From a virus: 29,157 nt of DNA. The DNA is taken from the IMG/VR virus record IMGVR_UViG_3300010885_053937, positions 1-29,157 of that record; one strand, written 5' to 3'. Below are positions 9,901 to 29,157 of this stretch, in pieces (position 1 is the first letter of the stretch; each line of letters opens with the position of its first letter). The notes under the pieces were generated by a model. It was not told the DNA's origin. It worked only from the letters and a program-made list of their open reading frames with translations, and ran no database searches. Position numbers and translations under genes: made by a program.

Positions 9901-12900
9901 TCCGCTTTGAAGAAATTGATTTGGTTGTATTACTAATGCATCCGTAACCATTTTATCAAACAGACCAACTATAAACGCATTGTAAGCATCATCTGACATT
10001 GCATTTGCTTCTCTTTGCTTTTTAACGTCCTTTAACATTTCTTGCACTACAGGTTCAATTAACAAAAGCTTTCTTTGAATTCTTTCGTTTAATTTATGAG
10101 CCAAGCTAGATATTGAGCCATTATTATCATTATCTAAATAACGTTTCTGTAAATTTTTGTAAGATTCAGAATTCAGATGTTTATTAATAATTTTTTCATA
10201 AACGTCGTCAGGAACCCAATCTGGTTTTATAAACTCAAATTTAAGGTCCTTTCCGTTTAAGCTATAAACCCCAAAATCAATACTTGTTGTATATGTTCTG
10301 TAAAATTGTTCTAAACCAAGTCTTCCAGTAACTTGTGGGAAAACTGTATCTTTTGCGGCTGCAATGATTCTTTCTCTTGGATATTTTTCAAAATCGGAAA
10401 TATCAAGTGCTTTTCTAGATGGAAGTGTTCCCATTTCACCGCCACTAACATTTGAGATGTCTAAACTATTATGATAGTACATAATAAGGTTAGCTAAATC
10501 TGCCTTGGTAACGTATCCATCTCCAATAGCCATGGAAATTTGTTCTACACCGGAAAGCTGAAATGCCTCAGGAGTATGAGAAAATCCACTTTTATTTAAT
10601 GTCTCAATTATGTTAGTTCCCTTAATCATAGGCGGGAATCTGTCGTTAAGAACATTGTCAACAACACTGTTACCAACAGATAGACCATGCTCTGCTTCAA
10701 TGGTGGCATTACTTAAGGCTAAAATATCGTCGATGGTATACGTTGCCTGTAATCCCTCTGTGCTTCCTCTAATTACTCCGTACTGACCAAAAGCGTATGA
10801 GAAACCAACAGGTGAACCGGTATCGTGAGTTTCATCATAAATTCCAGCTTTTTCAGCTTCTTTTTGTGTTTGGTAAAACTTATCGAAATCACCTCTTACT
10901 GTGTATGTTTTCTTTGTAAGAACTAATTTACCATCTTTATCAACTTCCCATCCATTTTGAGTAATCAAAAATCTTCCTAGTTTTTGAAACTCGCTGCTGC
11001 CTTTGAGTGCAATGTAGCTCACCAAAGACAATTTACCAAGCTTCTTGGTTACGTCAGATGCATCTTCACCGCCTTTTAAATCGCCAACTGAGAATAGCTG
11101 ACTGCCATTAAAATTTTCAACTTGGATTATATTGGATGAATTTGATATTCTTTTAACCAGTTCCAACGTGCTTCCTTCTTCTGGAACATCCTGTCTTGGT
11201 TGTTCAAATAACTGTTTTCTATTTAATGTTCTTCTTTTTTCAGTTACTCTTGCTTGAATTTCTGTTGGGCTTGTAAAGTAATTTGCTTTTGCAAATGCAT
11301 CTACTGCTCTTCTGAGAGATACAATTTTGTAAACATTTGGTTGGTCTATTCCAAAATTTTGTGGGTCTAGTGCTGAATGAAGCTCAAGTGCATGTCCTGC
11401 TGCATGGAAATCGTCATGCATGGGTAGAAGCCTCAATTGAACTTCTGGGTCACCCTGTGTGCTCATTAGCAAGTTTTCAAAACTTTCATAAACTAAATTT
11501 GCATCAGTTGGACTGTTAATTGTATCAACTTTGTTAATTAATTCTAAAGACTTATTAGCTAAATCAGGTGAAACTAGTCCTGCATCTGCAAGTTCGCACA
11601 AGGCACCGGATAATCTTCCAATGTACGTTTTAAATAATGGTTTAACGTGTGCATTTAAATTTTTATAAACCGGAGAATTGTTAATCTCCTGAATAAAGCC
11701 CTGAATTACTTGATGTGGGTCATAATCGCTTTCAATTTTCTTTAAATCAAGGTCTGCATCTTTTGCACCAAGATACCTCAAGAAATTCTTCCTAAGCATA
11801 GCCCTTTCTTTTGGTCCGTTGAACGTATAATTTTTTTGATGGTCGAACTTATACTGAAGAATATGTTGAACTTCATGCAACATCATGCTCGTTGCTGGGT
11901 TTTGTTTAATAAATTCGTTTCTGTATAGGTAACTTGGGTATGCCAGCTCTCCTGAATTTATTAAATTTCTGATACCAAATTCAATATGGTACATTGGTTC
12001 CCAAGAAACACCGTCATACGATTGAACAGCCGAAGCACCAAGCCTATCAACAAATTTTACAGGAATATCCTTCATTTCCGGGAAATGTTTATAAAGCTCT
12101 TCATGGTCAAATATATCACCAAGTGTAACATCTTTTGGGCCTACATATTTACCGGATGACGGTTTGTTGCCGTATTGATTCATGTAATCGTCAAACGCTT
12201 TTTGTGGTTCGTCTAATTTGATAAACGGAGTAAGCTCTAACCTTCCTTGATTTTTTGAAGTGAATGTAGCGTTGTTATCAGGAAGTTCAAAAAGAACATA
12301 TTTAGTGTTATTTTGTCCATTACCAACAACACGAACAAGACCTGTTGCTTCCATTCTCTTAACAAAACTTTCCTCTGATTCATTGATTGGTCTTTCAAAA
12401 CCAACAACAGATTGCATTGCACTTTGGGTTCCAAGTTCTCCGTATGGCGTTGCTTTGTTTGCGTATTTACTTAATTCCTTTAATGCCTCTGGGTCATGTT
12501 TAAAGTTTGGATTTTCATTTGCAGAATTAATTAAATCGTAAATTTTAGCTGGTTCTTTTTTGCTTCCAATACCTACAAGATTGAAAAATGAATTGTTAAA
12601 TTGAGATTTTTGGAAACGATTATTTACGTCTGCAAAATTGGTAATGTTTAATTTTTTTGCTAATGGTGGAATGTCATTCACACCATACAAAATTAAATTA
12701 GATTCTAATAAATTTATTGATGCAATAGCAGCACGATATGCTTGTGAGTTTCTTTGTTTAATTGCTACACGCTCAATAGTTCTCAAATACTTTATTTGAG
12801 TTTGCACACTGGAACCATCAAGTTTTGCAGCATCCCTAATCGCCATAAACGATGCGTCTTTTGATAAATCTAATTCGGGAGAATAATGATTTAATAAAAT

Positions 12901-15900
12901 TTCAACGTATGTTAAATGTGCTCTACTGTCTAAAAATTTATCTGTTACATTTATATCTCTTATTCCGTCTGAAATCGTTGTATCAAAAAACTTTACTTGC
13001 TCTGTAAATGGCAATTTAAAATAATCTTCAGTGGAAATTGATTTTGTTACCCCTGTTTCGTATTTAGTTTGAAATTTTTGGTTTTCTAAAGTTTCGGTTT
13101 CACCTTTTTCAGCAACTTTAGTGGCATCTCCACCACGTCCACCACGGTCATTTTTACCATTATCTGAACCGGCTATTACACTAATTATGGAACTACCATG
13201 CACTATAACATGTTTATCTGTTTGCTGTACAAAATAAGCATTATGTTCACCATCCGAAAGAAAACTTGGCTTAACCATCATTAATGGTTTTTTACTTGAA
13301 CCAAAAACAACAGTTACATCATTAAATGGAAATACTCCATTTGCCCCAATTAATGTTTGAATATTTTGGTGGTCAATGGTTCCTGATGCCTTTTTTAATA
13401 TTTTTTTGGCAATTTCTGAACCTTGTACAATTTCATTACATGAATATATTTGTTCTAGAAAAAAACTTGCTAGTTCTTTATGTTTTTCGTCAAGCAGTAG
13501 TATTGTTGCTGGTTTACCTTCTGAATCAGGGTGTGTATAATAAGTTCCGTTAGAATCAAGAAATTTTGCAGTTTCTGTTATCAAATCGTGCAGAAGTTTA
13601 TCATTTGCGTCACCGAGGGCTCGTAATTCTAACCAGTCTGGTGAATTAATTCTAGTTTGGAAATAATCTCTTAATTTCTTTACTCTTGTACTTTCTACCA
13701 ACTTAAAATCAGTTTGATTTTTTAAGCCGTGGAAAACTTTAAAATCAAATGCTAAATTTGCTTTTCCATATGTAGGCGTAGTGGCAGTTATAGGACTTTG
13801 TGAAATTGGACTTCTTTGTGAATCAGGTCTAGAGCCATTAAAAGCATCATCAAAAGCTTCTGCAAAATGTTGATTAATTACCCATTCCCTTTCAGCATCA
13901 TTTAATCCATGTAATAGTGGCGAATTTGCATCAACTACAAATACGGGTCCATGGTGCGAAATTTCTGCCCTAACAATTTTATTTTCTCTACGAAGTTGGT
14001 CTAAATATTCTGCTTCAGAAAACCCAAGTGCAGAAATATCGTCCAAGTCATAACCAGAAGCCCTCATTGCCTTGCCCTTACCTGTGCCTACGCTGTCTTT
14101 AAAGGCTAATACAGGAATTGAATTTACATTGTAAGAACGTTGTACGCCACGCACCCATATAGCAGCAGTAAGTTCTCTTTGTGTTTTTGAAGAAAGCAAA
14201 TCGCCTGTTCTGTATTTTTTCCAATAATGGTCTTTATCCTCAGAAAACGCCTTAAATTTTCCAAAATCTATTTCTGTATCAATTCCTACAACATTTCCCT
14301 TATCATCAAGGCCCCTGCATTGCAGCATTCTTCCCCTTGAATCAAAATTAGACAAATATTCATTTAATTTATCACGAACTCTCTTTTGTTCTGCAACATC
14401 TGCACCACCTCCAAAAAATGCTTCAGAGTTGAAACCATCCGGAGACGGAACTTTATCAGCGTCATCAAGCTTTTTAAAATGTTTACCTGCAACTTTTGCT
14501 GCTCTTTTAAAACTATCAACTACATCAATTTCTTGCCCAAACGGACTGTAAACTTTGAAATTTCCACCTTTTACGAAAATCTCGTAACCCTGTCTATCCC
14601 TGTACCTAGTGTTGGTAATTCTCTCAAAACCCTCCGTTGATAGATTTCTTCTAAATCCTTCGTATGAATTTCCGTGGTGATATGCAAACGGCTTAGAACT
14701 TGTTAACTCAAGGTTAACCATTCTATCTAATCTCAAAGAGTGATATGGGAAATTTGGACCCCTTTTATTGATTCTTGCTTCTTCACCGGGGCTGTTAATA
14801 AATCCTTCGTCTCCACGTTTAACGGCATTAAAAATATTGTACATAACGTCTCTTACCTTAGCCGAATTTGCACCGTATTTTGCTCTAAATAGTTCTTCTG
14901 AGGGTACACGGACAGATGGGTCCTGCATCATATTAATAACGTACTTATCAAATGCTACGTTCATTTCATCAATGCTTGTGAATAATTTTCTTACATCTGG
15001 TCTGCTCCAAGTCGTAATTTTGTTATTGTGAATAGCCATGTAATCAACCGCAGTAACCGTCATGGTTGTTCTTGTCTTGGATAATGGCTTTCCGTTGGCG
15101 TCTGCTATTTTGTTGGAAATTCTTAATTCATAAGGAACAAACATTCTATGCGTAATTGGAACATCTTTACCCTGTAGTCTGCTTAAAACTCCACCTCTCG
15201 TAATTTCTTTTTCAGCAGCCCAATAATCACTTACCATGATATTTGGTGTTGTAAATCCACTGTCATAGTAAGACCTAATTACGTCTCTAATTGCTTTGGC
15301 ATGATTAGCTGTTGTCTGGTCCATTCCTCCATCCCTAACAATAGCATCAAAAGCACCGTCACTTAAGTGAGTTAAATCAACCGCTTCATTTCCGTGTTCA
15401 TCTACACTTATTTCTACTTTTAAATTGTCTGGAAGGTTTTTGATGGTTTCAAAAGTCTTTTTGGACATGGAATCAGAAATTTCATTTAATTCCTTTTCCC
15501 CCTTCATAGTGACTCCACCGGCTACAGGATTAAACATGTATTCCTTGCCGTGTTTTTTGGCCTCAACTGCCATTCTTTCAGGAGATAGCCTGTAGATAGT
15601 ATTATTGTCTAAATTAATTGCCTCCCTGATTAATCTTTTGGCAAATTCATCCATTCCGGGGTGCTTCTGCCATTTTCCATCATCATAAACCTCTAATTGA
15701 ACTTTTGGTGTTCCATCTGGAGCAAATATTCCACTGCTTGTTACCCTTACACCTGCTTTATTTAATTCCAAATGTTTCTTTGCAAATAAATCATTTCTTG
15801 CACGTTCAAAATAATACCTGAGCGGTTTTTCCGAATCAGAAAGCATAATGTCTCTGAAATTTGAAAACATATACAAACCTTCCATGTGTTGGCCACATAT

Positions 15901-18141
15901 TTCTTCAAACATCCATCTTGCACCCGGATGCATTTGAGAATTAAAATCTTCTTCTTTAAAATCTGGGTCTAGTCTAGGGTCTGGGTAATTTTTATACAGG
16001 TTTTCCCTTAAATAATCCGTTTTATTTGGATAGTCTTTTCTTATTTCACCAAGCCATCCTTCAAAACTTTTAATAAGCTCTGGTTCTACATTTAAACTAT
16101 CTTTTTCAATAGACCATTTTTTATATTCAGGAGTAAATCCAGTATCTTTATTAAATGCTTCCTTTCCAGTTGCAGTTTTATACTGCCTCATGGCAGCTTT
16201 ACTTGAATAATACTCTGCACCACGTCTTTGTGCCCAAGCTTTAATCATTACTGCATCAGGTAAAATTCCACCGTCTTTTTTAGTTCCAAAGAAATCACTA
16301 TGATATGTTGATGTTTTTTGTTTTCCTTCTATTGCGTAAAGAGCAGCATGACTAAATATTTCGTGAGCAACATCTGCACCTCTTACAATGTCTGGAGTCA
16401 TTGTAATTATTGGAACTTTTTCTCCTTTTGCATTAGTAACTACATCAAAACTTGCTTTTCCTCCAATTTTTGCATTTTGATAACCATTTACTCCTTTATT
16501 TTGAAGTTGGTTTTGTAAATCTTTGTCTTCAAATGCTATGATTGCATTTCTTTGTTCGGTTGGGTCCAGAAGCCTAAATAATCCATCCCAAGAATTTCTG
16601 TTATTTGCCGAAGCTCTTTCATTTCCAAATTTGTCTTGTGCTTCAAGAATTGTTCTAATTTTTGCTGATGCAGTTGGATTATATTTTTCTATTTGTGGAA
16701 GAACGTTTCCGTCAAATTGGTCAATTAAAAGTCTGTGTGAAAATCCTCCATTAATTATGGACCATGAATGCCTAAATGCACCGGAATAACCAGACCACAC
16801 AAGACCCATGGCTGCACCGGATAATGCACCCTTATCCCTGTCATTTAAATATCCTAAAAATCCAAACTCAAGTGCACCTACGTATCCTTCTTTTAGTGCT
16901 GCTGTTGATAATTGTAATACTGGGTCTACGGTTACATTAAGAAACTTAGCAACCATTTTACCTGTGGGTGATAAATTTGGATTTTGGGCCAATCTTTCAA
17001 GTGTTGTTAATCCAATTTGCGACCTTGGGATTACTCCTTTTGCTGCATTTGCAAGCTCTTCACCGTAAGCACCCATTACTTCAGCATTTGTTCTAATTCC
17101 AAGAGAGCCAAGATAACCAACTGTTCTCTTAACGCCCCCGGCTGCTGCTGCTTCTCCTGTTACGCCAACGGCTGTTTCTGCTGCATTTCTTATTACTGCA
17201 TCGGTAACACCAAGACCACCGGCTGCCCTCTCAATATTAGCACCAATTAGACCTTGAACCATTGCCGCAGGATATTCCAATATTTTTCCGGCTGTTTTAA
17301 ATACACCGGCTGCTGCACCTTGGAATAATTTTCCAGAAGCGTTTTCAAATCTTGTTTTAGTTTTAGAGAAAAATGAACCAGCTTTTGATGCACCTTCTTC
17401 AATTGCCAATCCTGACGCAGATGCTGCAATTGCAGATTCTGCACCAGACGTCATTAACGCACGTCCAATAGCAGGAAGCTCAAGACCAATAAAACCCATA
17501 GCATGTGCTATTTTTGGGTTTATGTATCCTTTAATATTTTCTCTTTCTTGAGGACTTAAATTAATAAATCTATCTAATAAAACCTCCTGACCTTGTTCCA
17601 TTAAGTGCGTGTTATAATTTGTTTCTCTAGCGTCGTTCCATTGTGCAACTTCTGCTCTCCAATCACGAGATTTTCCTGTTACCAAAGAAGTAGCAGCAGC
17701 TCTTACGTGAAAAATTGGTGACGTTGGGTTTTCGGAAGATGTAAGAAGGTGTATCATGTCTCTATACATCCTTCCGACACCCTCAATGGTTGAACCTGCC
17801 CATACTAATGGATTTGGACTTTCTTTAATTCCCTGTGCAAGTGTTACAGGCAACATTGCCATGTCTTTTACGGCCTGACCAAACACTTCACCGTAATTTG
17901 TTACTCTGTCTGAGCTTTCCTGAACAATTTTTTTCCAAGTAGCTTCTGTATTTGGGTCATTTAAATCAAGTTTTTCACCGGGGTGAGCGGCAAAATAATC
18001 CATGTAGCTTTGTTGCTGTGGAGCTTCTGCGGCTAAATTAAGGTCTTGATATGTAGGATTAAGCGACCTGCCCATATCCGTTAATTGTTTAGCTCTTAAG
18101 GCTACTTCATTAACGTCTTGGTTTTGTTCAAAGTTTTCCAT
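895..18141 (-). CDS. Giant 5,748-aa polyvalent-type virion/ejection protein
   Basis: One uninterrupted frame of 17.2 kb (about 0.63 MDa). The ATG overlaps the upstream stop as TAATG. Landmarks by residue: polar N-terminus 1-200; Gly/Ala-rich hydrophobic stretches about 214-252, 268-334 and 418-455, as in DNA-ejection proteins; HEIFSH at 593-598 with Glu-Glu at 746-747; Ser/Pro/Thr linker about 1435-1455; Gly/Lys/Asp-rich linker (RGGRGGD) about 1655-1690; HEVQH at 2089-2093 (zincin HExxH) with TEIQAR at 2293-2298; a polyvalent-type domain about 4600-4765 with EETQSD at 4661-4666. These last features are typical of phage and plasmid polyvalent proteins carried into the recipient cell with DNA. 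The gene sits where T7-like phages encode the last internal core protein, directly before the holin. I infer a packaged, ejected multi-domain effector, possibly self-processing. No lytic transglycosylase, P-loop ATPase, methyltransferase or RNA polymerase motif was recognised. Most of the length is unassigned. Confidence 0.8.
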   Translation of the reverse strand: MENFEQNQDVNEVALRAKQLTDMGRSLNPTYQDLNLAAEAPQQQSYMDYFAAHPGEKLDLNDPNTEATWKKIVQESSDRVTNYGEVFGQAVKDMAMLPVTLAQGIKESPNPLVWAGSTIEGVGRMYRDMIHLLTSSENPTSPIFHVRAAATSLVTGKSRDWRAEVAQWNDARETNYNTHLMEQGQEVLLDRFINLSPQERENIKGYINPKIAHAMGFIGLELPAIGRALMTSGAESAIAASASGLAIEEGASKAGSFFSKTKTRFENASGKLFQGAAAGVFKTAGKILEYPAAMVQGLIGANIERAAGGLGVTDAVIRNAAETAVGVTGEAAAAGGVKRTVGYLGSLGIRTNAEVMGAYGEELANAAKGVIPRSQIGLTTLERLAQNPNLSPTGKMVAKFLNVTVDPVLQLSTAALKEGYVGALEFGFLGYLNDRDKGALSGAAMGLVWSGYSGAFRHSWSIINGGFSHRLLIDQFDGNVLPQIEKYNPTASAKIRTILEAQDKFGNERASANNRNSWDGLFRLLDPTEQRNAIIAFEDKDLQNQLQNKGVNGYQNAKIGGKASFDVVTNAKGEKVPIITMTPDIVRGADVAHEIFSHAALYAIEGKQKTSTYHSDFFGTKKDGGILPDAVMIKAWAQRRGAEYYSSKAAMRQYKTATGKEAFNKDTGFTPEYKKWSIEKDSLNVEPELIKSFEGWLGEIRKDYPNKTDYLRENLYKNYPDPRLDPDFKEEDFNSQMHPGARWMFEEICGQHMEGLYMFSNFRDIMLSDSEKPLRYYFERARNDLFAKKHLELNKAGVRVTSSGIFAPDGTPKVQLEVYDDGKWQKHPGMDEFAKRLIREAINLDNNTIYRLSPERMAVEAKKHGKEYMFNPVAGGVTMKGEKELNEISDSMSKKTFETIKNLPDNLKVEISVDEHGNEAVDLTHLSDGAFDAIVRDGGMDQTTANHAKAIRDVIRSYYDSGFTTPNIMVSDYWAAEKEITRGGVLSRLQGKDVPITHRMFVPYELRISNKIADANGKPLSKTRTTMTVTAVDYMAIHNNKITTWSRPDVRKLFTSIDEMNVAFDKYVINMMQDPSVRVPSEELFRAKYGANSAKVRDVMYNIFNAVKRGDEGFINSPGEEARINKRGPNFPYHSLRLDRMVNLELTSSKPFAYHHGNSYEGFRRNLSTEGFERITNTRYRDRQGYEIFVKGGNFKVYSPFGQEIDVVDSFKRAAKVAGKHFKKLDDADKVPSPDGFNSEAFFGGGADVAEQKRVRDKLNEYLSNFDSRGRMLQCRGLDDKGNVVGIDTEIDFGKFKAFSEDKDHYWKKYRTGDLLSSKTQRELTAAIWVRGVQRSYNVNSIPVLAFKDSVGTGKGKAMRASGYDLDDISALGFSEAEYLDQLRRENKIVRAEISHHGPVFVVDANSPLLHGLNDAEREWVINQHFAEAFDDAFNGSRPDSQRSPISQSPITATTPTYGKANLAFDFKVFHGLKNQTDFKLVESTRVKKLRDYFQTRINSPDWLELRALGDANDKLLHDLITETAKFLDSNGTYYTHPDSEGKPATILLLDEKHKELASFFLEQIYSCNEIVQGSEIAKKILKKASGTIDHQNIQTLIGANGVFPFNDVTVVFGSSKKPLMMVKPSFLSDGEHNAYFVQQTDKHVIVHGSSIISVIAGSDNGKNDRGGRGGDATKVAEKGETETLENQKFQTKYETGVTKSISTEDYFKLPFTEQVKFFDTTISDGIRDINVTDKFLDSRAHLTYVEILLNHYSPELDLSKDASFMAIRDAAKLDGSSVQTQIKYLRTIERVAIKQRNSQAYRAAIASINLLESNLILYGVNDIPPLAKKLNITNFADVNNRFQKSQFNNSFFNLVGIGSKKEPAKIYDLINSANENPNFKHDPEALKELSKYANKATPYGELGTQSAMQSVVGFERPINESEESFVKRMEATGLVRVVGNGQNNTKYVLFELPDNNATFTSKNQGRLELTPFIKLDEPQKAFDDYMNQYGNKPSSGKYVGPKDVTLGDIFDHEELYKHFPEMKDIPVKFVDRLGASAVQSYDGVSWEPMYHIEFGIRNLINSGELAYPSYLYRNEFIKQNPATSMMLHEVQHILQYKFDHQKNYTFNGPKERAMLRKNFLRYLGAKDADLDLKKIESDYDPHQVIQGFIQEINNSPVYKNLNAHVKPLFKTYIGRLSGALCELADAGLVSPDLANKSLELINKVDTINSPTDANLVYESFENLLMSTQGDPEVQLRLLPMHDDFHAAGHALELHSALDPQNFGIDQPNVYKIVSLRRAVDAFAKANYFTSPTEIQARVTEKRRTLNRKQLFEQPRQDVPEEGSTLELVKRISNSSNIIQVENFNGSQLFSVGDLKGGEDASDVTKKLGKLSLVSYIALKGSSEFQKLGRFLITQNGWEVDKDGKLVLTKKTYTVRGDFDKFYQTQKEAEKAGIYDETHDTGSPVGFSYAFGQYGVIRGSTEGLQATYTIDDILALSNATIEAEHGLSVGNSVVDNVLNDRFPPMIKGTNIIETLNKSGFSHTPEAFQLSGVEQISMAIGDGYVTKADLANLIMYYHNSLDISNVSGGEMGTLPSRKALDISDFEKYPRERIIAAAKDTVFPQVTGRLGLEQFYRTYTTSIDFGVYSLNGKDLKFEFIKPDWVPDDVYEKIINKHLNSESYKNLQKRYLDNDNNGSISSLAHKLNERIQRKLLLIEPVVQEMLKDVKKQREANAMSDDAYNAFIVGLFDKMVTDALVIQPNQFLQSGGKPKGPFFGNFNTGREGNTVPSSLTTNVIKRRGLTNTIQGVGGTYEGLTVKGSEYGAFGFHTPVPMIGAAWFGTPFDFNEVASINTSWFGTRIHPQGDVVPFGPSAESVGPQFSQSGGKLGSRFNYYFRNLDSVNSSLAKYETLHECAMNLFSGYQDKIGEAMMHIEDLEGYVRLHETDPQKYMAKFNLTPEEASVRLQKQREQIESLKRSVVNDNYEQQMAGILKNLFALGNQRFLHDVVRDNSPSSGVYLRKNVVGGSRQEHIAFAPQYGVQTYQIGGKTIFDLDHIFCSLEDKDSLEIRSGFGSGIPLSIRKKQADASLLFDGQLRLMMFANHDYWESDGNTNDKRLASVTPTERHLPLFNLLTQISSDNGASSRFDLPKNMTIASGKSIVEIGLLGHAVRLGRNKGIQYSKLITDMVTNKSLDAMQDKTGYLNNTANWSGLGTNFNGVEFLGGEMSQNLNLSVQHQSLGVASSVVLRHLLVRNSVFTDKTNVVYGTLPGIDTAAYRQAEIAGLAGEFSVPFSQLSPDNLALINDFINQLPQKTKAFIVSELSSTNNSLNVLTSLGVINSLKLIKKQQENPAAFKGTVRHPIHPDYNIPNGLSLQDAVDYSVSNSLHTKVATIKEGERANLGVVEHKEIHTIMAQLVDSPEFWHGYFAAHEAHNEIMVPNMETPYSFLDRRHKQSIIGRTRHSIYSNHDFRIEDNAADLASRRGTYLNDVINNGPFLRFSTTLEHDRYTNEIHGFSQSSTIDLNSMHLGNLPSEGVPLRKAFSNEDPTSSLPAASDSVLHGGVESTDPITLNEYFYNASKINRSTEIPGNIDYSENITISDGSSKMGMTEDNGELLHTSASGSDRVKVRLPIVKTNIGKSLRDDIIRHQLALSARQYGATEISSIAARYPISVSVPTLFPGLTEVGKIDYLRNNHVATALIGMTTQTSDIVGRNDLPRSGLSWTRLEDGRLMINYTPTIDLNQLFKMINREQQMGIPFKTGLGFDTASGTLIPQSSARMLWMSKRLSLMTNRTGHPDTARLLNGSIHFDQQITNQQAKAFRALSGNVPEGDPLSAQIKYHTDEGVAEIGPGRDDLAALLNPDEPVMFGLTPESMTDFTDKDAYRPYHHQFLMDAMSQHNNHTFSYFTHVLPKDCTKEDVNAVIIALHSIAHELNPADQTGDEMGFNSTIHSIGFNRFTHQESSNFRSMYKTNIAAWKKRELPRESKPSMGLNPELENTDNSGKTIAYNQAVLRKLASTNPDFAAHVDEMSSRAVLEPRGYSVPSAERKLKLNGDRSEAIKLMFPGRNDLLKYAWDAGKTLNLDVFEKSDKSGFIVSHDSITGMNADGTPEMGRKAKTFKTRAEADTYSTSVQNQGGIAGIPNVLFGDNGYRVEKLSLPEAKGESAVNVDITPVVSLVPDTEGNARTTISKTLYKVGNLDGIYPKKQAVELAKMLKAQDVITAKAPEVKRSIMLSTDGLESAAELERLVRARSSFGITGSPFSFSSTLMKAITLGALSRDKSVEAYTGNDWFRILKANGVSKGEMRATGVASMLHNLKDHKLSRNEFAQFAAAMYPTFYQTIDRGDIRQTNTEARIPRRITDPQAAINRVVSEHSQAIGEIESSLISKIDAEQNPLAKQVYSTILDNIRNTMITSLGQIYGFEKTAKLFENKNEPVGKIIAGLKWDPNGESGIPDITAGAFWLFRNNLSKSYSDVTLSNLANSIGIDLKEFELTTDNFNHTRTDNAIEPVIGQDGHTLPIPPSREAGEAQLVGAYGYGVTNTTVFRGYSSGYGDPNVVILHGGFQDSVEIQKIDNFVKNLKAKLKETTDPVEKDKLNKMIESANNVKSVKKSFNAKDRLRDITSNHQHFRWMRSGIWEIGHLRFTSGVSTLVSSIGDGPLALSDAFSKSLAEQEIVPTLILEETQSDKYQKMEFGKIETSQVLPSTQEEAVQFQRLPEFSRLTTAIEAAKNKRQDLIRETRVLNKPGMWNDAILGASIMKARMQQAHVATKYALLKSYENITSGETWKMNTATAPKELLQGLLVKTGRKVKIPKEVQDRFGLPAEIEDFYINDNHLYANWLYKELSEGYLSDDTGTYFGSNPQKNLVKQLFGEKIPYIDIPLDSDDYYGGTRSFRSDSQGLLTLKFLKTASMFDENLAATMPRIISDVETKESLFGVNYDFDALGKRAIQILETKLLSMDRGEAGAVHPKGRAFLGRVIADLKAMAEMDGRKMIMPEKRIEKISEQSDGWVGGEQRYDNASNLAELATMEGLTKPRMFVLSDITECFDRSITSRTWDDLYSNPDKFSGMVKKLMENKKISHGIGDATYPTSAKATVRLSYIEALKLQMEINAANHNMSLDEYLASSKHELMDSYKAAMGLNGPDAMIPAWNKILGKAATGDHILFSALTAPTDMNDASESGTRIAPPAAKLSSRTVIGRYLEVTFPSIINAYKSKKFIEEQNLNVQKLEDIKKEMKVDIITEQAQKNKTMPDVLPLGEEGAYRGVQSAFSIMKAIQERQEAVSYIDGRYHINRYGNNGNIKIMYNLGNGRGGFIQDAGVNDLAAIYTLNESQKIGANHDFLGRIMRGELKDSDIRPDGLFVHGGQMGSLKTHVDLAINEIANQLLVFDKDHEAKMKECAFEMVKRAVMRSKNDPNMDTAIVDAFGQSDLARVQKVHKGSTSLIVAVPYGRFNGYSSNYGLPSWAADIVLSGQSEAARTKVKHDLYTRPVVEHKNGVFNILDPKTGKLLVGDLTDPRMVKERVAQLSKYEGSVPVVSSWLGTYKRAGMYFMNSHLWNNTDVSTGRTTGMTSALDNLGTQILSGEPGVDPISNTYNSMMRNIGHTPLTADLYRKTEGIIERHPNINTKESQAVQVANVPTHDQGANRHSGFYGPAVNGTSQNIPEIRQDLPAALYAMGVRKTSSAKEIAAAIAQTTGFVAPAFIVRPRFPTEAHTFEMRKMVVEGIPLMSVGDFKNPNIKAKRAVGDYKWLTRYKPIPLKRNQDDDETTIR
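3850..4335 (-). other. Large-polyvalent-protein-type domain (EETQSD) inside the giant protein
   Basis: Residues about 4600-4765 of the giant protein. Order of landmarks: N-H-Q-H-F-R-W-M (from about 4604), G-H-L-R-F about 12 residues later, L-I-L-E-E-T-Q-S-D-K-Y-Q (EETQSD at 4661-4666), then G-M-W-N-D-A-I-L-G-A-S-I-M-K-A (about 4726-4740). This matches the pattern of a widespread domain of phage/plasmid polyvalent proteins: H-F-x(n)-aHvRf, then flEEiQSDwhQ, then W-x-x-alKrai. The biochemical role of that domain is not established to my knowledge. I do not assign a numbered family. Confidence 0.65.
11248..11877 (-). other. Zincin metallopeptidase-like domain 2 (HExxH plus EIQAR) inside the giant protein
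   Basis: Residues about 2089-2298 of the giant protein. The segment L-H-E-V-Q-H-I-L-Q is a canonical zincin HExxH in a hydrophobic helix context. About 200 residues later comes Y-F-T-S-P-T-E-I-Q-A-R-V-T-E-K-R-R, which matches the GEvEAR-type signature that follows HEIQHAIQ in polyvalent-protein zincins; Glu2294 is the likely third zinc ligand. The spacing is longer than I would expect for the compact family, suggesting an insertion between the two motifs. Family-level recognition is good; catalytic activity is inferred. Confidence 0.65.
15901..16365 (-). other. Candidate metallopeptidase-like domain 1 (HExxxH) inside the giant protein
   Basis: Residues about 593-747 of the giant protein. The segment contains V-A-H-E-I-F-S-H-A-A-L-Y, an H-E-x-x-x-H spacing, and about 150 residues later W-M-F-E-E-I-C-G-Q-H, whose glutamates could supply a third metal ligand. 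HExxxH is one residue longer than the classical zincin HExxH; it is known from dipeptidyl peptidase III (HELLGH), and similar HExxGH signatures occur in phage polyvalent proteins. This is a motif-level call; no fold could be tested. Confidence 0.4.
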
Positions 18142-22495: not shown

Positions 22496-23326
22496 TTAGT
22501 TTGTTATTGATGCAGCTCCTTGTGCGTTGATAGATGCTTGCGATACGTATTCGTCAAAAGATGGGAAAATATCTGTTCCTGTAGGCACTGATACAAATAA
22601 GTTTGAACCACCGGCAACTGATTGCCTGATTTGTTGCGAACGAATTGTTCCAATGTTTTGCGTTTCTACGCCAGAAGCACATGCATCTGAAATTAATTGA
22701 GATTCCAATGGAACTGCTAATGGAATTGCTGATGCTGCACTAAATGCATTTGAAACTACAGTTTGTGCAATTCCAGCAGATGTTGTAGCAATGTTGATTT
22801 GCTGACCTTGTGTTGCCACATTCTTGAAATAATCTACGTTTGCATGACCTCCGCCCATTGCAGCAGACATTCCTGCTAAAAATTGAGCAAATGCTACACC
22901 CTCATTAACAGGGCTAGAACCATAAACATCAGTTTTAATTGAGTTTTTAACTTCATCAAACTGGCTTTTTGCTTGAGCCCCGACAGCATCTACTGCAGTA
23001 ATAAATCTGTCTGTTAAAACAACTCCTGCATTAGTTTCTGCTTGAGCCCAATAACCATCGGTTTTCATTATTTCAGCTAAAGTTTGAGCCGTGTAGCTCA
23101 TTTCTTGAGCTGGGTCACGTGTTTTAAATGTAAAACCACCAGTTAACTTTGACCAAGTAGTTGTAATTGCATTCAACGCAGGTGCAGACGAGGTGGTACC
23201 TGTGTCATTTTCGTAAAAAATTCCGTGATAATAAACCCTTACTCCGGGGGAATAGTCTATTGTGGAATTGTAAAAATAAATTCCTTTTGAATCGTAGTCG
23301 TTGTATAATTTAGAGGGTAAAGCCAT
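22496..23326 (-). CDS. Virion protein with N-terminal carbohydrate-binding-like module, 276 aa
   Basis: Residues 16-60 hold a pattern Y-F-Y-N-S-T-I-D-Y-S-P-G-V-R-V-Y-Y-H-G-I followed by FYEN and a later Trp. This resembles the CBM5/12-like fold (Y-x-P-G-x-x-x-Y-x-G-x-x-Y) found in chitinases and phage tail proteins, and the same module occurs in the adaptor candidate at 28305-29003. The rest is Ala/Ser/Thr-rich and helical (about 75-210), like an internal or tail-attached structural protein. I chose ATG 23326 because it follows the nozzle stop in a TAA-A-ATG junction identical to the one before the adaptor gene. An ATG at 23368 (or TTG at 23371) in the same frame would add 14-15 residues and overlap the nozzle gene. 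It may be a tail or core component; the substrate of the module is unknown. Confidence 0.6.
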   Translation of the reverse strand: MALPSKLYNDYDSKGIYFYNSTIDYSPGVRVYYHGIFYENDTGTTSSAPALNAITTTWSKLTGGFTFKTRDPAQEMSYTAQTLAEIMKTDGYWAQAETNAGVVLTDRFITAVDAVGAQAKSQFDEVKNSIKTDVYGSSPVNEGVAFAQFLAGMSAAMGGGHANVDYFKNVATQGQQINIATTSAGIAQTVVSNAFSAASAIPLAVPLESQLISDACASGVETQNIGTIRSQQIRQSVAGGSNLFVSVPTGTDIFPSFDEYVSQASINAQGAASITN

Positions 23327-23327
23327 T

Positions 23328-24749
23328 TTAGAATACGCTAAAGATTGAGCGTCCGGATACGCTAGCATCAACCATTACAGAATAGAATGCAGGTCTACCA
23401 GAATTAACAACTACTTCTATCTTACATCCCATCGACTTTTTTGCAGCCAAAGCACGTCGAACCGTTGTTCCAAGATTTCCGGATACTTTATCAATAGTAC
23501 TTGTTGAGTCAGGATTCAATGTAATGAAGTTAATATCAGTCTCCGTTGCACCGTTTGTATCCATATGTACCGTTGTTGCGTCGTAACGTTTATCAAGGTG
23601 TGTTTTAAACATGTAATTACGTGTGCGAAACTTAGCAACAATTGGTGTACCATTATCTGTTGAATTTGCCTGTAATACAAAAACCCTTCCGTCGGCTGTA
23701 ACCCCAAAAACATGGGGAATTCCATCATAATACCGGCAAGTCACTAAATGCTTAAAATTTACAGGATACACGTCGATAGATTCGAACAGGTTTTCGAGCA
23801 GTGGATTAATTACTAGCACTTTATTGTTTTCCGATGAACCAACATCGGCAAACGATAGGTGATATCTGCCGTTGGCGGCTGCACCGGAGGCTTTTTGCAA
23901 AACTGCCGGGTCACGGTTTTCAAAGTAATTATGAAGCGGTAGGGTTGCTGGCCCTTGTCCCTCGAGCCATTGATAATTAAGTGGAAGTGCATACACGCCA
24001 TTGTATCCCATAAAGAAAATCTTACCGCCTGTCTCATCAACCGAGTCGGGTGCTATGCAACCTTCGTGTGCTGATAATAATTGAACCTTATGAAAATGGT
24101 CTTGTGTGGGTGGTTTGTCGCTAGCCGTTACTGCTGGCATTGCTGGCTCAATTTTGTACATAGAACGCTTACCAAGTGCTATAAGTTGTCTGGTAGTGTC
24201 AGACCAATGCAGGGCTGTGATGGGGTCATACGTGCCTTGTACAAGTGAAAGCGTGTCAGGATTGAATGGTTGCACACCACCGTATAAACTGAACCAAATT
24301 TGGTCGTTTTTGGCGTACGCCAGACGGCCCAATACGTACTCTGCTGACGTGAAATTGTAATCGCCAGACCAGCTTGCTGCTTCTGCGGCTTCAATGGCGG
24401 CTGGCTTAGTGTAACCTAACCCACCAACAGGAAGGTAAGCCCGATTTGCCGTTGGTAGCTGGGTAATAGCCGGTGTTGTTGTCATGGTTGGCACACGACG
24501 CACTTTTCCATCAGAGCCCCAAAGGTAAATGGCATCGTCGACTCCATGTCCTGCTGTGGCGTGAGTGCAAGTCACTCCTGTTGTAGCGTGGAGCAGTGCA
24601 CCTTGGCGTGGGCGAAGGACGCCATCGTCGATACGCATGTTTTCAATGTACTCAAGTAACCCTTTGTTGGGGTCAAAGGCGGCACTATTAGGAAATGTCT
24701 GGAAGCCCTGAAAGCTCAGGTCACCGTCTTGTTGGAATTCTCTTGGCAT
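23328..24749 (-). CDS. Tail nozzle / tail tubular protein B-like, 473 aa
   Basis: Beta-rich throughout, with repeated short motifs such as D-A-I-Y-L-W-G-S-D-G-K-V and P-H-V-F-G-V-T-A-D-G-R-V-F-V-L, as in beta-propeller tail nozzle proteins. The N-terminal signature G-L-L-E-Y-I-E-N-M-R-I-D-D-G-V-L-R-P-R (about 30-48) is the 'N-x-r-x-d-d-G-x-l-x-x-R-x-G' pattern of T7 gp12-like and P22 gp10-like tail proteins, which seal the tail tube and guide DNA exit. It is shorter than T7 gp12 (about 794 aa), nearer to the compact nozzle proteins of small podoviruses. GC content of hand-counted lines is 50-57%, well above neighbours. The start follows an A/T-rich leader with no Shine-Dalgarno. Confidence 0.65.
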   Translation of the reverse strand: MPREFQQDGDLSFQGFQTFPNSAAFDPNKGLLEYIENMRIDDGVLRPRQGALLHATTGVTCTHATAGHGVDDAIYLWGSDGKVRRVPTMTTTPAITQLPTANRAYLPVGGLGYTKPAAIEAAEAASWSGDYNFTSAEYVLGRLAYAKNDQIWFSLYGGVQPFNPDTLSLVQGTYDPITALHWSDTTRQLIALGKRSMYKIEPAMPAVTASDKPPTQDHFHKVQLLSAHEGCIAPDSVDETGGKIFFMGYNGVYALPLNYQWLEGQGPATLPLHNYFENRDPAVLQKASGAAANGRYHLSFADVGSSENNKVLVINPLLENLFESIDVYPVNFKHLVTCRYYDGIPHVFGVTADGRVFVLQANSTDNGTPIVAKFRTRNYMFKTHLDKRYDATTVHMDTNGATETDINFITLNPDSTSTIDKVSGNLGTTVRRALAAKKSMGCKIEVVVNSGRPAFYSVMVDASVSGRSIFSVF

Positions 24750-24756
24750 AAATTTT

Positions 24757-26247
24757 TTATTTGGATTCTGGACCTGAATTTAGGGTTTTTGTGTAACCGT
24801 CAAAATTACCTTTAATATCAGTACAAACATCAAAACCTTCACCCCAACTGGCTTGTTCTTCTATGGCTAATTGTTTTATCTTTATTGGACCAACAGGGGT
24901 TTGACGAAGAACAATTGTTCCTGTGTGCACTTGTGTTAATACAAATTTGCCCGGGCCCGGTGTAGTTTCTTCTGGGTTGTCTGGTGTCCAAGTAATTTTT
25001 GCTATGTCGTGCCTAATGCAATCAGTTTTAATGTAACCAACACCTTTTTCTTCTATTCCTGTAACGACTTCTACTTCATCAACATTGTTAGCATATACGT
25101 CAATTGGCCCATCGGCCACACTGGCGTATTCAGGGCAAGTGCAGCAGCCCTCAGATGGAGGCTCGTAGTTTGGTCCATTATTTAAACTAATCTGTATGTC
25201 TGAACCTTCAAAATGACCAATCATGTTACTGCTATTAATGGTAGGAAGTTTCAATGTTTCAGTAGTTACATCTACATAACTTTGCAAAGCTCCACTACCA
25301 TTCACTTTTGTTTTAATAGTTGTATCGGGAGCTGCTTTTTGCTCAGAAACACAAATTTGTGGAACGATTGATTCTAAAGCCATGTCAAAATCGGGTGTAA
25401 CTTTATAAACAAACACTACGTAATCTTTATTTTTTGTTAATTCAATTTTTCCATTTTCAATAAACTTACTAGACATGTTGGCTCCAACTGTTAATTTACC
25501 GGCTTCAAATACGTTATACCTTTTTACATAATGTGTTTTAGTTACTAACCCTGCTGAAAATCCACCAAGTGCAGTAGCACTTACTATGCCTTGGGCATTA
25601 GCTTTGTAACGGTCAAATATAACTGTACCTTTTTGAATTCTTAGCATGTATTTAGGGTCTTCGCCTTCTTTTGTTTCTGTGTCTATCTGGCACAAAAATT
25701 CTTGTCTTACGTCTTCTGTTACAGGAGCAATAATATCACTGCTCCATATCTGAGTAACAAAACTGTTTTTAACGTATCCAATAACAATGTCTTTAGGTGT
25801 TACGGAAAGGTCTGCTCGCTCAATAACACCTAACGCCCAATAATAAGATGCGTTTACATCAACTATTTTTGAAAGAACAATATAAGAGCCGTTTTGGAAT
25901 AAACCTGCTGGCCAAATTACTGTTTGTCCGGCTACAGAATCATTATTTGTAGCCATACCTATATCTTCATTTTTGTAATAAACAGGCGGAGTATTCCCAA
26001 CAAGACCACCCCTTTCACGTTGTGAGTTGTATGAGCCAAATGAAGATGAGCTTCCACCAACTCTATTAGTTACGGAACGTTTAGGCATAGCCCTTCTAGA
26101 TACGTATTCCGTTCTTCCTGCAGCAAGTGCTGGTTCATCGTAAATACCACCTAGGTGCATGGTTACTTGCCTGTAGCTTGCCTCAATGTGCCAAGGAGGA
26201 ATAGTTCTGCTTCCGGAAGTATTCGAGCCAGACCTTGTCCTTCCCAT
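24757..26247 (-). CDS. Unknown structural protein (tail-associated), 496 aa
   Basis: Not recognised. The N-terminal about 90 residues are Ser/Gly/Arg-rich and probably flexible (RTRSGSNTSGSRTI). From about 90 on, the protein is beta-strand-rich with many Val/Ile/Thr alternations (QTVIWPAGLFQNGSYIVLSK) and ends in another beta-rich part. A cysteine cluster G-C-C-T-C-P-E at 367-373 is unusual for a phage structural protein and could bind metal or form disulfides. It lies between the fibre-like/133-aa pair and the tail nozzle gene, so a tail spike, fibre or adhesion role is likely by position. A strong purine-rich Shine-Dalgarno (GAGGAGGG, about 8 bases upstream) supports the start at 26247. Low GC compared with the nozzle gene next to it. 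Confidence 0.6.
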   Translation of the reverse strand: MGRTRSGSNTSGSRTIPPWHIEASYRQVTMHLGGIYDEPALAAGRTEYVSRRAMPKRSVTNRVGGSSSSFGSYNSQRERGGLVGNTPPVYYKNEDIGMATNNDSVAGQTVIWPAGLFQNGSYIVLSKIVDVNASYYWALGVIERADLSVTPKDIVIGYVKNSFVTQIWSSDIIAPVTEDVRQEFLCQIDTETKEGEDPKYMLRIQKGTVIFDRYKANAQGIVSATALGGFSAGLVTKTHYVKRYNVFEAGKLTVGANMSSKFIENGKIELTKNKDYVVFVYKVTPDFDMALESIVPQICVSEQKAAPDTTIKTKVNGSGALQSYVDVTTETLKLPTINSSNMIGHFEGSDIQISLNNGPNYEPPSEGCCTCPEYASVADGPIDVYANNVDEVEVVTGIEEKGVGYIKTDCIRHDIAKITWTPDNPEETTPGPGKFVLTQVHTGTIVLRQTPVGPIKIKQLAIEEQASWGEGFDVCTDIKGNFDGYTKTLNSGPESK

Positions 26248-26249
26248 AA

Positions 26250-26651
26250 TTACTTACCCTCCTCTTCAGGTTTTTCAAATGGCGGTGCTTCGCTTGTATT
26301 AAATTCCATATACCGCTCAAGTATAATACCAAGTTCTAGACACTTTGCTTGCACCTCTTCCATTGTTCCAAAAAATATTTCAAGGTGTGTTAAACATGTG
26401 CGAGTTACTTTTTGAGTATATATTGAAATCACCTTAAAGTCTTTTTTATCCCAAAAAGCCCATCTGTAAAGTAACACTACCTGTCCGGCTTCGATTAGAT
26501 ATCGGGTTGGTTTATCTACTTGTACCTTGCCTTTAATTGTACCCTCATTCCATCTTTTTGCAAACCTCTCATTCCTCTCCTTGGCAAGTTCCCATCCGTC
26601 TTTAGCATCTACGTTAAAAGGAATTTTTTTTGAGTTTGATGCGTTTTCCAT
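26250..26651 (-). CDS. Small unknown protein, 133 aa, in tail gene block
   Basis: Not recognised. Polar, charged N-terminus (about 1-45, rich in Lys/Glu/Asn/Arg), then a hydrophobic beta-like core (YLIEAGQVVLLYRWAFWDKK, about 51-70), a helix with the EIFFGTMEEVQAKCLELGI pattern (about 91-109), and an acidic tail (FEKPEEEGK). It could be a small tail-fibre assembly factor or chaperone given its place just after the fibre-like gene, but nothing in the sequence proves that. The start lies two bases after the previous stop, with a G-rich leader (GAGGGTGGTG) overlapping the end of the fibre-like gene. Confidence 0.6.
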   Translation of the reverse strand: MENASNSKKIPFNVDAKDGWELAKERNERFAKRWNEGTIKGKVQVDKPTRYLIEAGQVVLLYRWAFWDKKDFKVISIYTQKVTRTCLTHLEIFFGTMEEVQAKCLELGIILERYMEFNTSEAPPFEKPEEEGK

Positions 26652-26653
26652 GA

Positions 26654-28012
26654 TTACACCACCCTCAATGGAATTGCGTAACTTACTCCGTTAATTGTAA
26701 TTTGAAGTTCCCTATTAATTCCAAAACTTGAAACAGTTGTAACTGTTGTTCCGGGAATTAAAGTAGTTCCATTAATCTTAATACCGGTATTGTCTAAGGT
26801 AAGTGCAACCGTACTTGGTTCAATTCCAATACCTACACGACCACTGGCATTAATTACAAAAGGAGTAGCATCTGGGCTGGTTTCATCTTCAATTCTAACC
26901 GTATCACCAGTTCCTGTATTTGTAATCTTAAGTCCAGCCCCAGAGCCAGTTTGATTGATAGTTACAGTAGGACTAGATGTACTGCTTTGAAATGTATTAC
27001 TTGAAGTATAAGTATTTCCCCTATTTGTATCAGCAACAATTCGTTCAGTTCCACCAGCATCTTTATATTTGATAGAACTTCCAGAAATCCAGATATCACC
27101 AGCAACTGAAGATGCTGGAATTACACCTGTTGAAAGGTTAAGTGGTGCGGTTGTAGTACCTGCATTTGCAAAAACTTTACCTCCTGTAAATGATGCACCA
27201 CCGTTTAATTTTGCATACACAGTAGTGTCTTCTCTAACCAGACCAACTCCATTTACTTTAACGCCATTTGTTGCAGATACACTTATTTCGTTAAATGTTG
27301 TGGCGTTTGGTGCTATGTTCTTTTCGTGTCTTAAAACAAGACCATCAGTAGCGTTTGCGTAAATTCTGTATTGTTTGTAGTCAGCATCTGTTACTTTATT
27401 GTGAAATGTATCAACGATTTCTACAATAGAAACACCTGTATCTGTTGCAATTTGAAGTCCGTTCCAACCTAGAACATAACTATTATCACCTGAAAATTGT
27501 TCACCATAAACTTGTGAAGCACTATGTCCCCAGTCTACACTTGTCTCACTACTACTTCCACTAATACCGTTGTGTGTTAAATTAAAACTACCAACATCTG
27601 AATCATCATCTTTAGGCTGTCCATAGCCAGTAATTTCTCCCGGTGTTAATATTAACGATTTGAAAGTTTCCGAAGCCGTATGTATGCCTTCTAATTGAAT
27701 TCTTGGAATGGTTGTACCACCAACTCTTCTCTCTATGCTAACTGGGTTATAATATTCACCGGGGACATCAGTTTCGATTGGAAATTCTAATGCACCACCA
27801 AAAGGATTAAATTTAAAAAGATTATGCGTACCAGCACCTGTGTCATTGTAAGCGTCGAGGACCAAATTTTCGTTTAGTAAATTCTGAACTTTAGGCACAT
27901 ACAATGTACCAGACATTAGTCCACCCGGAAGCCCACCAACAAGTTTTACTGCCGTTGGGTCTACTTCGTAAACAATGCTTCCATTGCCACCTCCTCCGTT
28001 ATTAATAGGCAT
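26654..28012 (-). CDS. Tail fibre-like protein, 452 aa
   Basis: Thr/Gly/Asn/Ser-rich, beta-repetitive sequence typical of trimeric phage fibres. Characteristic fibre-shaft phrases are visible: G-D-I-W-I-S-G-S-S-I-K-Y-K-D-A-G (about 305-325), like the 'GdlWyng-t-lk-rn' phrase, and N-A-S-G-R-V-G-I-G-I-E-P-S (about 388-400; G391-G396), the 'dGrvGIGt-P' phrase that precedes tail-fibre tip or chaperone regions. No C-terminal peptidase S74 chaperone domain is seen; the protein ends in a beta-rich stretch (LQITINGVSYAIPLRVV). Role: host recognition or fibre scaffold at the tail. T7 places its fibre after the internal core genes, so the position between adaptor and nozzle genes is a rearranged order. 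The start overlaps the upstream stop (TAATG). Confidence 0.65.
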   Translation of the reverse strand: MPINNGGGGNGSIVYEVDPTAVKLVGGLPGGLMSGTLYVPKVQNLLNENLVLDAYNDTGAGTHNLFKFNPFGGALEFPIETDVPGEYYNPVSIERRVGGTTIPRIQLEGIHTASETFKSLILTPGEITGYGQPKDDDSDVGSFNLTHNGISGSSSETSVDWGHSASQVYGEQFSGDNSYVLGWNGLQIATDTGVSIVEIVDTFHNKVTDADYKQYRIYANATDGLVLRHEKNIAPNATTFNEISVSATNGVKVNGVGLVREDTTVYAKLNGGASFTGGKVFANAGTTTAPLNLSTGVIPASSVAGDIWISGSSIKYKDAGGTERIVADTNRGNTYTSSNTFQSSTSSPTVTINQTGSGAGLKITNTGTGDTVRIEDETSPDATPFVINASGRVGIGIEPSTVALTLDNTGIKINGTTLIPGTTVTTVSSFGINRELQITINGVSYAIPLRVV

Positions 28013-28302
28013 TATTCGGAGTAGTGGTAGATGTAGCCGCTTCCTTTAATCCAGACCTGACCGCAGTATCCTGCGAAGTCCAAACTGCCACCGTCAGCAG
28101 CACCGGATGTTGAAGCTTTGCGTACAAGGATTGCGTCACCAGCACCATTAGGTTGAAGTATTACTTCAAGGTCAGTGGTTCCAGTATTTACGATGCCAAA
28201 TACTCTTCTGTTTCTAACTTCAGGAAGAATTTTGGTAGAACTGCCGTTGCTAAAACTAGTAACGTCAATGTTTGGGAGTGTTGGGGGGAGTAATTTATAC
28301 AT
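28012..28302 (-). CDS. Small beta-rich virion protein, 96 aa
   Basis: Mostly beta-strand prediction: R-V-F-G-I-V-N-T-G-T-T-D-L-E-V-I-L-Q-P-N-G (about 33-53) followed by short strands ending with G-Y-I-Y-H-Y-S-E. Such small beta-sandwich proteins occur beside adaptor and fibre genes in podoviruses, often as tail or head decoration, and I infer the same here without naming a family. A good Shine-Dalgarno (AGAGGA, about 8 bases upstream of 28302) lies within the end of the adaptor gene. The stop overlaps the start of the fibre-like gene as TAATG. Confidence 0.6.
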   Translation of the reverse strand: MYKLLPPTLPNIDVTSFSNGSSTKILPEVRNRRVFGIVNTGTTDLEVILQPNGAGDAILVRKASTSGAADGGSLDFAGYCGQVWIKGSGYIYHYSE

Positions 28303-28304
28303 GA

Positions 28305-29003
28305 TTAATATCCTCTAAAGTTAATAGGTCTTATCGACCCTTGTTGACGGAGCGTTTGGTCGAGGGCTGCGTCGATTGCCCTTTGGCAGTCGGCTTCTGC
28401 AGCGTTGGCGAGCTCCATTTCTCCTGTTGAACGACGGAAGTCCGAGAGGAGCCCATAGATAAGAGAGTTCGCAAATAGCTTAGGAATTTGGATAATTGTC
28501 CAATTGCTACTTGCACTAGGGTTTGTTCCGCCTGTTTGGTTTGTTGCTGAGGTGTTTTCATAAAAGTTTCCGTTGTTATATGTTTTTGCTCCGGGTGCGT
28601 ATGTTTTTGATGCGTCCCAAGTTTCTCCATCCAAGTAAGGGCATTCAAGTCTAGATTCAATCCAGACATCTTGGTCTAAGTCATTCTTGAGGTAAACAAC
28701 GTCACCTACAAGCTCGAAATCTTTTTGAACTGCATTTTGTGCCATAGGGTCTTTGTTCCAGATTGTAAGAATCTGTCCAAAGCCAGCCGGGAAATTAATG
28801 CTACGTCTTCCATCAACAAGCGTTGAGGAGCACTTTTCGATTTTTCTAATGTCCGTCCATTCGTGCATTTCCCAAATGGTACGAAGTCTCATGTTTGCAA
28901 AGTCCCTGAGCATAGCGAATCGTTGATTCGTAGACAAGTCCCTGTCCAAACCGCAAAGTTGCAGTGCTGGAAACAGGATTTGTTCATAGGAGACTGTACG
29001 CAT
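28305..29003 (-). CDS. Head-tail adaptor / tail tubular protein A-like, with carbohydrate-binding-like insert
   Basis: 232 aa from ATG 29003, chosen because it follows the upstream stop in a TAA-A-ATG junction with AGGA upstream. A GTG at 29054 would add 17 residues overlapping the previous gene and lacks support. N-terminal helices with M-L-R-D-F-A-N-M-R-L-R-T-I-W-E-M-H-E-W (31-49) match the 'R-x-fan-x-x-l-x-x-aWe-x-x-W' pattern of T7 gp11-like tail tubular A proteins that join the portal to the nozzle. An inserted module at about 129-171 (W-D-A-S-K-T-Y-A-P-G-A-K-T-Y-N-N-G-N-F-Y) resembles a CBM5/12-like fold. The C-terminal helix bundle (SLIYGLLSDFRRSTGEMELA) continues the adaptor fold. Order (adaptor before nozzle) matches T7 gp11-gp12. 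GC is higher than in the fibre-like block. Confidence 0.6.
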   Translation of the reverse strand: MRTVSYEQILFPALQLCGLDRDLSTNQRFAMLRDFANMRLRTIWEMHEWTDIRKIEKCSSTLVDGRRSINFPAGFGQILTIWNKDPMAQNAVQKDFELVGDVVYLKNDLDQDVWIESRLECPYLDGETWDASKTYAPGAKTYNNGNFYENTSATNQTGGTNPSASSNWTIIQIPKLFANSLIYGLLSDFRRSTGEMELANAAEADCQRAIDAALDQTLRQQGSIRPINFRGY

Positions 29004-29004
29004 T

Positions 29005-29157
29005 TTAAATTGTCCTACCGTATGCATCAAACAAGCCTTTAGTGCCGTTGACACGAACCGTAGTCTTCTCCGCTTTGGAGTTAACTAGGCATTCGGGATT
29101 ATCTTTCCAGAAACCTTTAACGAAGTTATCGTCTTTCCAGCAAGCATACCCAAGTCT
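29005..29157 (-). CDS. C-terminal end of an unidentified upstream gene, partial
   Basis: The open frame enters from the right edge and ends in TAA at 29007-29005; 50 residues are visible, from RLGYACWKDDNF to LFDAYGRTI. It is the only frame without stops consistent with the downstream gene's start. The residues are mixed (two Cys, several Trp/Phe) and not recognisable. In T7-like order the gene before tail tubular A is the capsid gene, but I cannot confirm that from 50 residues. Confidence 0.6.
   Translation of the reverse strand, partial: RLGYACWKDDNFVKGFWKDNPECLVNSKAEKTTVRVNGTKGLFDAYGRTI

Follow-up and report, generated by a model that had tools for sequence, protein, structure and literature searches.

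A CBM5/12-like module in a phage head–tail adaptor and a related one in the protein encoded after the nozzle

Two proteins encoded by an uncultured phage, a head–tail adaptor and a 276-residue protein that we call p276, carry related small modules, that of the adaptor with a CBM5/12-like predicted fold. Both genes lie in IMG/VR virus record IMGVR_UViG_3300010885_053937, a stretch of 29,157 bases that we refer to as the window. The resemblance between the two modules is genuine and tells something about both. An earlier note on this DNA had reported a common core, Y-x-P-G-x3-Y-x2-G-x-F-Y-E-N, followed by a distal tryptophan, and this core is present at residues 135–150 of the adaptor (with W168) and 25–40 of p276 (with W58). 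Sequence comparisons indicate that the two modules are homologous. We favour, at about an even chance of being right, a reading in which the CBM5/12-fold module is old in the adaptor, where it would form a protein–protein platform in the dock region, and in which an adaptor-type copy later entered p276. The features concerned are:

28305–29003, minus strand: head–tail adaptor gene, 232 amino acids (aa), SU10/T7-type fold (sub-cut-off Pfam match, predicted fold, gene order)
28485–28634, minus strand: CBM5/12-like adaptor module, residues ~124–173 (predicted fold, clade-wide presence)
22496–23326, minus strand: p276, a predicted mostly helical protein of 276 aa after the nozzle gene, ATG at 23326 (from its position, a putative needle or ejection protein)
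23141–23290, minus strand: module inserted in p276, residues 13–62 (absent from homologues; adaptor-profile scores)

The adaptor and its clade-wide module

An AlphaFold2 model of the adaptor, built from an alignment of 42 sequences, has a mean predicted local distance difference test score (pLDDT) of 84, with block means of 82–89 over residues 121–170. It matches solved phage adaptors across residues 2–226 (best Z 12.1), and its top 23 structural matches are all phage tail or adaptor chains (160–178 residues aligned, Z 8.9–12.1). Pfam SU10_adaptor meets the window protein at an expectation value (E) of 2.3e-4 (22.1 bits; the cut-off of 27 is not reached) and, at E up to 1, 18 of 42 clade adaptors (best E 1.4e-6). 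The gene lies downstream of the major capsid protein (MCP) gene in a relative contig, L001, and the adaptor is present in 57 of 67 MCP-selected loci, many of them partial. The predicted fold matches SU10 gp11 and T7 gp11 over most of residues 2–226; unlike the clade adaptors, these two have no module by profile, and comparing sequence profiles between them and the clade gave nothing significant. Because the clade adaptor profile recognises neither, their kinship with the clade rests on fold. The C75C1 protein is related (15.6 bits on that profile, reached by 0 of 1,000 shuffles). Searching a phage collection by tblastn with the whole adaptor and the whole p276 gave no match up to E 1; module queries matched it weakly, with E no better than 0.3 for that of the adaptor and 5 for that of p276, and a genome-contig scan with the adaptor alignment confirmed no relative. 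The open reading frame (ORF) list places the adaptor start at GTG 29054 (28305–29054); ATG 29003 agrees better with the homologues.

The module, predicted to fold like a CBM5/12 domain, is embedded in an otherwise ordinary adaptor fold, between strand 112–118 and helix 175–192 of the model. Residues 121–174 superpose on CBM5/12 domains from chitinase B and from chitin deacetylases (44–49 residues, 1.3–2.6 Å, Z 3.8–4.2), and Foldseek gave chitin deacetylases a probability of 0.99–1.00, but with E 0.16–0.33. For the adaptor copy, the CBM5/12-like assignment of the earlier note is thus in keeping with the predicted structure.

That note also described the module as interrupting the expected adaptor fold, which is right as to its setting. 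It is present in 79 of the best 80 of 140 adaptor loci (many on contigs already among the MCP-selected loci), the 80th frame ending inside the module at a contig end; the carriers include 17 adaptors at 31–36% identity. A separate set of 70 adaptors gave the module in 67, with contig ends interrupting the remaining three. Since it occurs in all clade homologues that cover this site, the module is an old, fixed part of clade adaptors and not a local decoration; we rejected the idea of the adaptor as a newly interrupted member on this clade-wide presence. As to the suggestion that adaptor homologues be checked for lack of the insert, none that spans the site lacks it within the clade; SU10 gp11, T7 gp11 and the C75C1 protein do, by profile, the adaptor-module profile scoring them no better than shuffles. 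We used this profile control in place of an argument from residue spans. The T7, HRP29, PhiM1 and LME-1 adaptors span 47–53 fewer residues than the window adaptor model, but for SU10, N4 and DEV the number is roughly that of the model; as the place of the extra residues cannot be read from spans by themselves, the argument was dropped. The other inspected adaptors that span the site hold an extra hairpin of ~15–30 residues inside the module, which is absent in the window and L001.

An adaptor-type module set into p276

We searched for the exact core motif in stop-to-stop frames of at least 60 aa from 152 loci plus the window. Besides the two window proteins, only the adaptor of a single closely related contig (L001 = L003 = L076) has it, and it is missing from all 47 further p276 loci. 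Smith–Waterman comparison of adaptor and p276 scores 70, the highest of 28 pairs among eight window proteins (the next reaches 48) and a value attained by 0 of 5,000 shuffles. An adaptor-module profile finds p276 at E 9.1e-6 among 10,418 frames as its top match outside adaptors; leaving out the window row changes this to E 1.3e-4 or 6.9e-5. With the hairpin excised, p276 scores 25.0 bits on the profile; removing the window row lowers this to 21.4 or 22.1 bits. Each of these values lies above all 5,000 shuffles. The relatedness claimed in the earlier note therefore stands.

Taken one by one, the best partners for the p276 module come from other adaptors of the clade. Ranked with hairpins excised, over the 64 of 70 adaptors in which the pattern could excise them, the modules of the L049 and L051 adaptors score 86 and 85 against 70 for the window's own. 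At the DNA level the two window modules are identical at 60 of 123 nucleotides, compared with 58.4 ± 3.1 under synonymous recoding (696 of 2,000 recodings at or above). Recent duplication, one form of the origin proposed earlier, was rejected because this identity is no higher than recoding gives. Adaptor-profile scores, the L049 and L051 partners and a DNA identity at recoding level together indicate that the p276 copy is adaptor-type, neither recent nor clearly derived from the adaptor of its own genome. That it is nonetheless a duplicate of this phage's own adaptor module would agree with the exact core motif occurring without the extra hairpin, among the sequences compared, only in p276 and in the adaptors of the window and L001; with no DNA-level trace and better partners in other adaptors, we consider this origin quite improbable.

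Viral-contig scans with the single p276 sequence or its module confirmed no relative; scanning with a p276 alignment confirmed 47 homologues. The module is in none of them (0/47). One, L180, matches the module profile at E 7.7, which is chance level; L163 and L172 begin downstream at the first methionine, and their whole frames were scanned. Close homologues run from a KLYxDY segment to GFxFxTRDP with few residues between, where the window protein has residues 13–62. By these comparisons the module is a lineage-specific newcomer in p276, and the adaptor is the clade-wide carrier, so the direction of insertion put forward earlier is not upheld. In more distant homologues this N-terminal stretch holds other inserts of as many as ~100 residues; the site thus seems tolerant of insertions and is a possible hot spot. 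A different insert of ~100 residues lies in the N-terminal region of the window module in L182, L174, L176, L173, L178 and L184.

The remainder of p276 is predicted to be mostly helical (helices 72–87, 92–135, 143–156, 161–199, 207–245 and 257–274; model mean pLDDT 66, predicted template modelling score 0.34). It belongs to no Pfam family and no convincing PHROG family, and comparison of its model with 49 chains offered by Foldseek reached at best Z 5.3, supporting no homology. Because a profile of its homologues gave nothing significant against SU10 gp11 and gp16–gp23, the naming of p276 draws solely on its place and its predicted helices. By position p276, a putative tail component, may be a needle or ejection protein; SU10 gp18, a needle, occupies the place after the nozzle. 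The helical prediction favours an ejection protein over a needle, and no homology supports p276 as either.

Fold kinship and the sugar-binding site

We pooled ten phage modules (seven from fibres, the two of the window and one from a Microcystis phage) into a profile that finds the CBM12 of chitinase A1 (1ed7, E 5.9e-6) and the CBM5 of 2rts (E 6.1e-4). The seven fibre modules and the Microcystis phage module by themselves, with no window sequence, give the window adaptor 14.8 bits, reached by 0 of 5,000 shuffles. The adaptor module shares its predicted fold and the core tyrosine and tryptophan with the CBM5/12 domains of chitinase A1, chitinase B and chitin deacetylases: the alignment used has invariant Y and W columns that include both window modules. 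Such residues have a core role in CBM5 according to one study (PMC8449059). What the chitin-binding domains have and both window modules lack are the exposed ligand aromatics; the window modules also fall below the Pfam cut-off.

In CBM5, the same study describes an exposed Y-W or W-W pair, almost fully conserved, that binds chitin (PMC8449059). Neither window module has an aromatic residue between FYEN and the last tryptophan. Leaving aside the first two residues past FY (at the second, tyrosine is common in clade adaptors), the ligand loop is free of aromatics in 64 of 67 adaptors and holds one phenylalanine in the other three. The key tryptophan of chitinase A1 we take to be W687, a position that fits the residue order in the pooled-profile alignment. 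By our reading, and depending on the alignment, the adaptor has Gly159 or Thr160 at the equivalent position, where p276 has Pro49 or Ala50. As the exposed ligand aromatics are absent from both copies, these sequences do not support glycan binding by the two window modules, nor the surface glycan-binding decoration proposed in the earlier note.

Fifteen distinct fibre-like ORFs of relatives carry the same kind of module, the seven in the profile among them. By our reading of the strings, 12 of the 15 keep a tyrosine near the position of the chitinase A1 tryptophan; if any copy in the clade binds sugar, the fibres would be better candidates than the adaptor or p276. Module-bearing fibre-like ORFs follow a conserved 96-aa gene in L040, L058, L114, L005, L006, L062, L123 and others; their common N-termini are of MPIYNGGGG or MGSSYLPP type, and some have collagen-like repeats.

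Those fibre tyrosines, the tyrosine two residues past the FY of the second strand in many clade adaptors, and the CBM5/12-like fold with its relation to chitin-binding domains are what speaks for both modules being genuine glycan-binding decorations of the virion surface, which would tether the particle to the host envelope or to extracellular polysaccharide. We regard this as unlikely: the aromatic pair and the tryptophan equivalent are absent from both window copies, p276 might lie within the head, and in a report on cyanophage A-1(L) (PMC10966104) the distal carbohydrate-binding module of the neck fibre shows no binding to the host.

Modules of this kind are met in other tail machines. An A-1(L) tail fibre (8kec) has a CBM5/12-like stretch whose fold matches the adaptor module at Z 4.5. 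All3316 of the Anabaena contractile injection system (7b5h) matches at Z 3.8, and weakly by pooled profile (E 0.14), as does an F2-pyocin fibre (25vf, E 0.44). By their titles all three are fibre or baseplate parts, unlike the head–tail adaptor described here. Judged by titles and abstract openings, we recognised no head–tail adaptor with a carbohydrate-binding module in the literature.

A proposed platform at the neck

In SU10 and T7 adaptors a fibre-dock domain beside the helix bundle receives the fibres (PMC9509320). We propose that a small CBM5/12-fold β module is an old, fixed elaboration of the clade adaptor, probably placed at the end of the β region that forms the tail-fibre dock in SU10/T7, just before the C-terminal helix pair. 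If the adaptor is a dodecamer, twelve copies would ring the neck, and this ring may act as a protein–protein platform, either docking fibres or enlarging the dock, or bracing neighbouring subunits. The absence of exposed ligand aromatics is the reason for preferring a platform to a sugar binder. In the window lineage an adaptor-type module would then have been inserted separately at the N-terminal insertion site of p276, a direction of transfer that we infer.

Several observations weigh against this proposal. The adaptor is identified by a sub-cut-off Pfam match, predicted fold and gene order, because comparison of its alignment profile with SU10 gp11 was not significant, and the dock placement is drawn by analogy. 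For the CBM5/12 assignment, a structural Z of about 4 is modest. Pfam CBM_5_12 gives the window adaptor module 15.8 bits, short of its cut-off of 26.2, and does not find that of p276; at E up to 1 it detects one of 42 clade adaptors, the window's, and this loose threshold also gave matches in 11 of 14 control genomes. Used singly as phmmer queries, the window modules retrieve no known chitin-binding domain. The pooled profile ranks a dioxygenase first (4ilv, C-terminal part, E 4.1e-7), and with seven of its ten rows from fibres this profile speaks first for fibres. Even lacking the canonical aromatics, the modules may bind sugar in some other way. As to kinship, the profile of fibre and Microcystis phage modules gives p276 −3.1 bits (3,974 of 5,000 shuffles reach it), the pooled profile without p276 gives it 5.6 bits (50 of 5,000), and the p276 module has a pLDDT of about 45 in its model, with no confident fold.

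This last group of results bears on whether the p276 resemblance is mere convergence on a common Y-G-Y-W β pattern, with no shared ancestry. The module is short, the pairwise alignment holds 12 identical residues, a profile without window rows misses the p276 copy, and that copy has no confident predicted structure. Set against this, the adaptor-profile score is reached by 0 of 5,000 shuffles, with or without the window row, and p276 is the best non-adaptor match among the 10,418 frames; we give convergence little credence. A bolder extension of the platform proposal, to which we assign a similarly small probability, is that one CBM5/12-derived fold serves as an interchangeable connector in the adaptor, the neighbouring fibres of many relatives and, in this lineage, the post-nozzle protein, with contacts between modules or between module and partner that help tail assembly. 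If true, a fold known for binding sugar would have become an internal plug-and-socket between tail parts.

The minus strand of the window runs from the adaptor through a 96-aa gene, a fibre-like gene, two further genes and a nozzle-like gene to p276, beyond which lie five more ORFs and one ORF of 5,748 aa. The neighbours between the two module genes include:

28012–28302, minus strand: conserved 96-aa gene between adaptor and fibre (43 ORF rows matched, including the window and its copy L002)
26654–28012, minus strand: fibre-like gene, 452 aa (six ORF rows matched, including the window and its copy L002)
23328–24749, minus strand: nozzle or head-closure-like protein, 473 aa (weak PHROG matches)

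The 452-aa fibre-like gene, whose counterparts in relatives frequently have a CBM5/12-like module, gave no module match in the scan that found the fifteen fibre modules. The nozzle-like protein weakly matches a PHROG virion structural protein (E 0.0094) and Hc3 (E 0.17). Its homologues occur in 43 relative loci; the nozzle gene is downstream of the adaptor wherever both are present (43/43), and p276 comes next after it in all 38 loci with both genes. In L001 the ORFs upstream of the adaptor read as terminase, portal, scaffold and MCP; annotated matches back the portal and capsid, and the terminase and scaffold are our reading of the ORFs. SU10 has a gene order similar to that of the clade. The 5,748-aa ORF (895–18141, minus strand, 17.2 kilobases) stands in the position of internal virion (ejection) proteins; it has no significant Pfam match, and its two halves gave only sub-threshold domains of unknown function.

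A CBM5/12-like module is thus fixed in the head–tail adaptor of a whole clade of uncultured phages, and both window copies may be connectors rather than sugar binders. For annotation this carries a caution: when a phage structural gene is annotated as 'carbohydrate-binding', the term can denote a fold without its ligand site.

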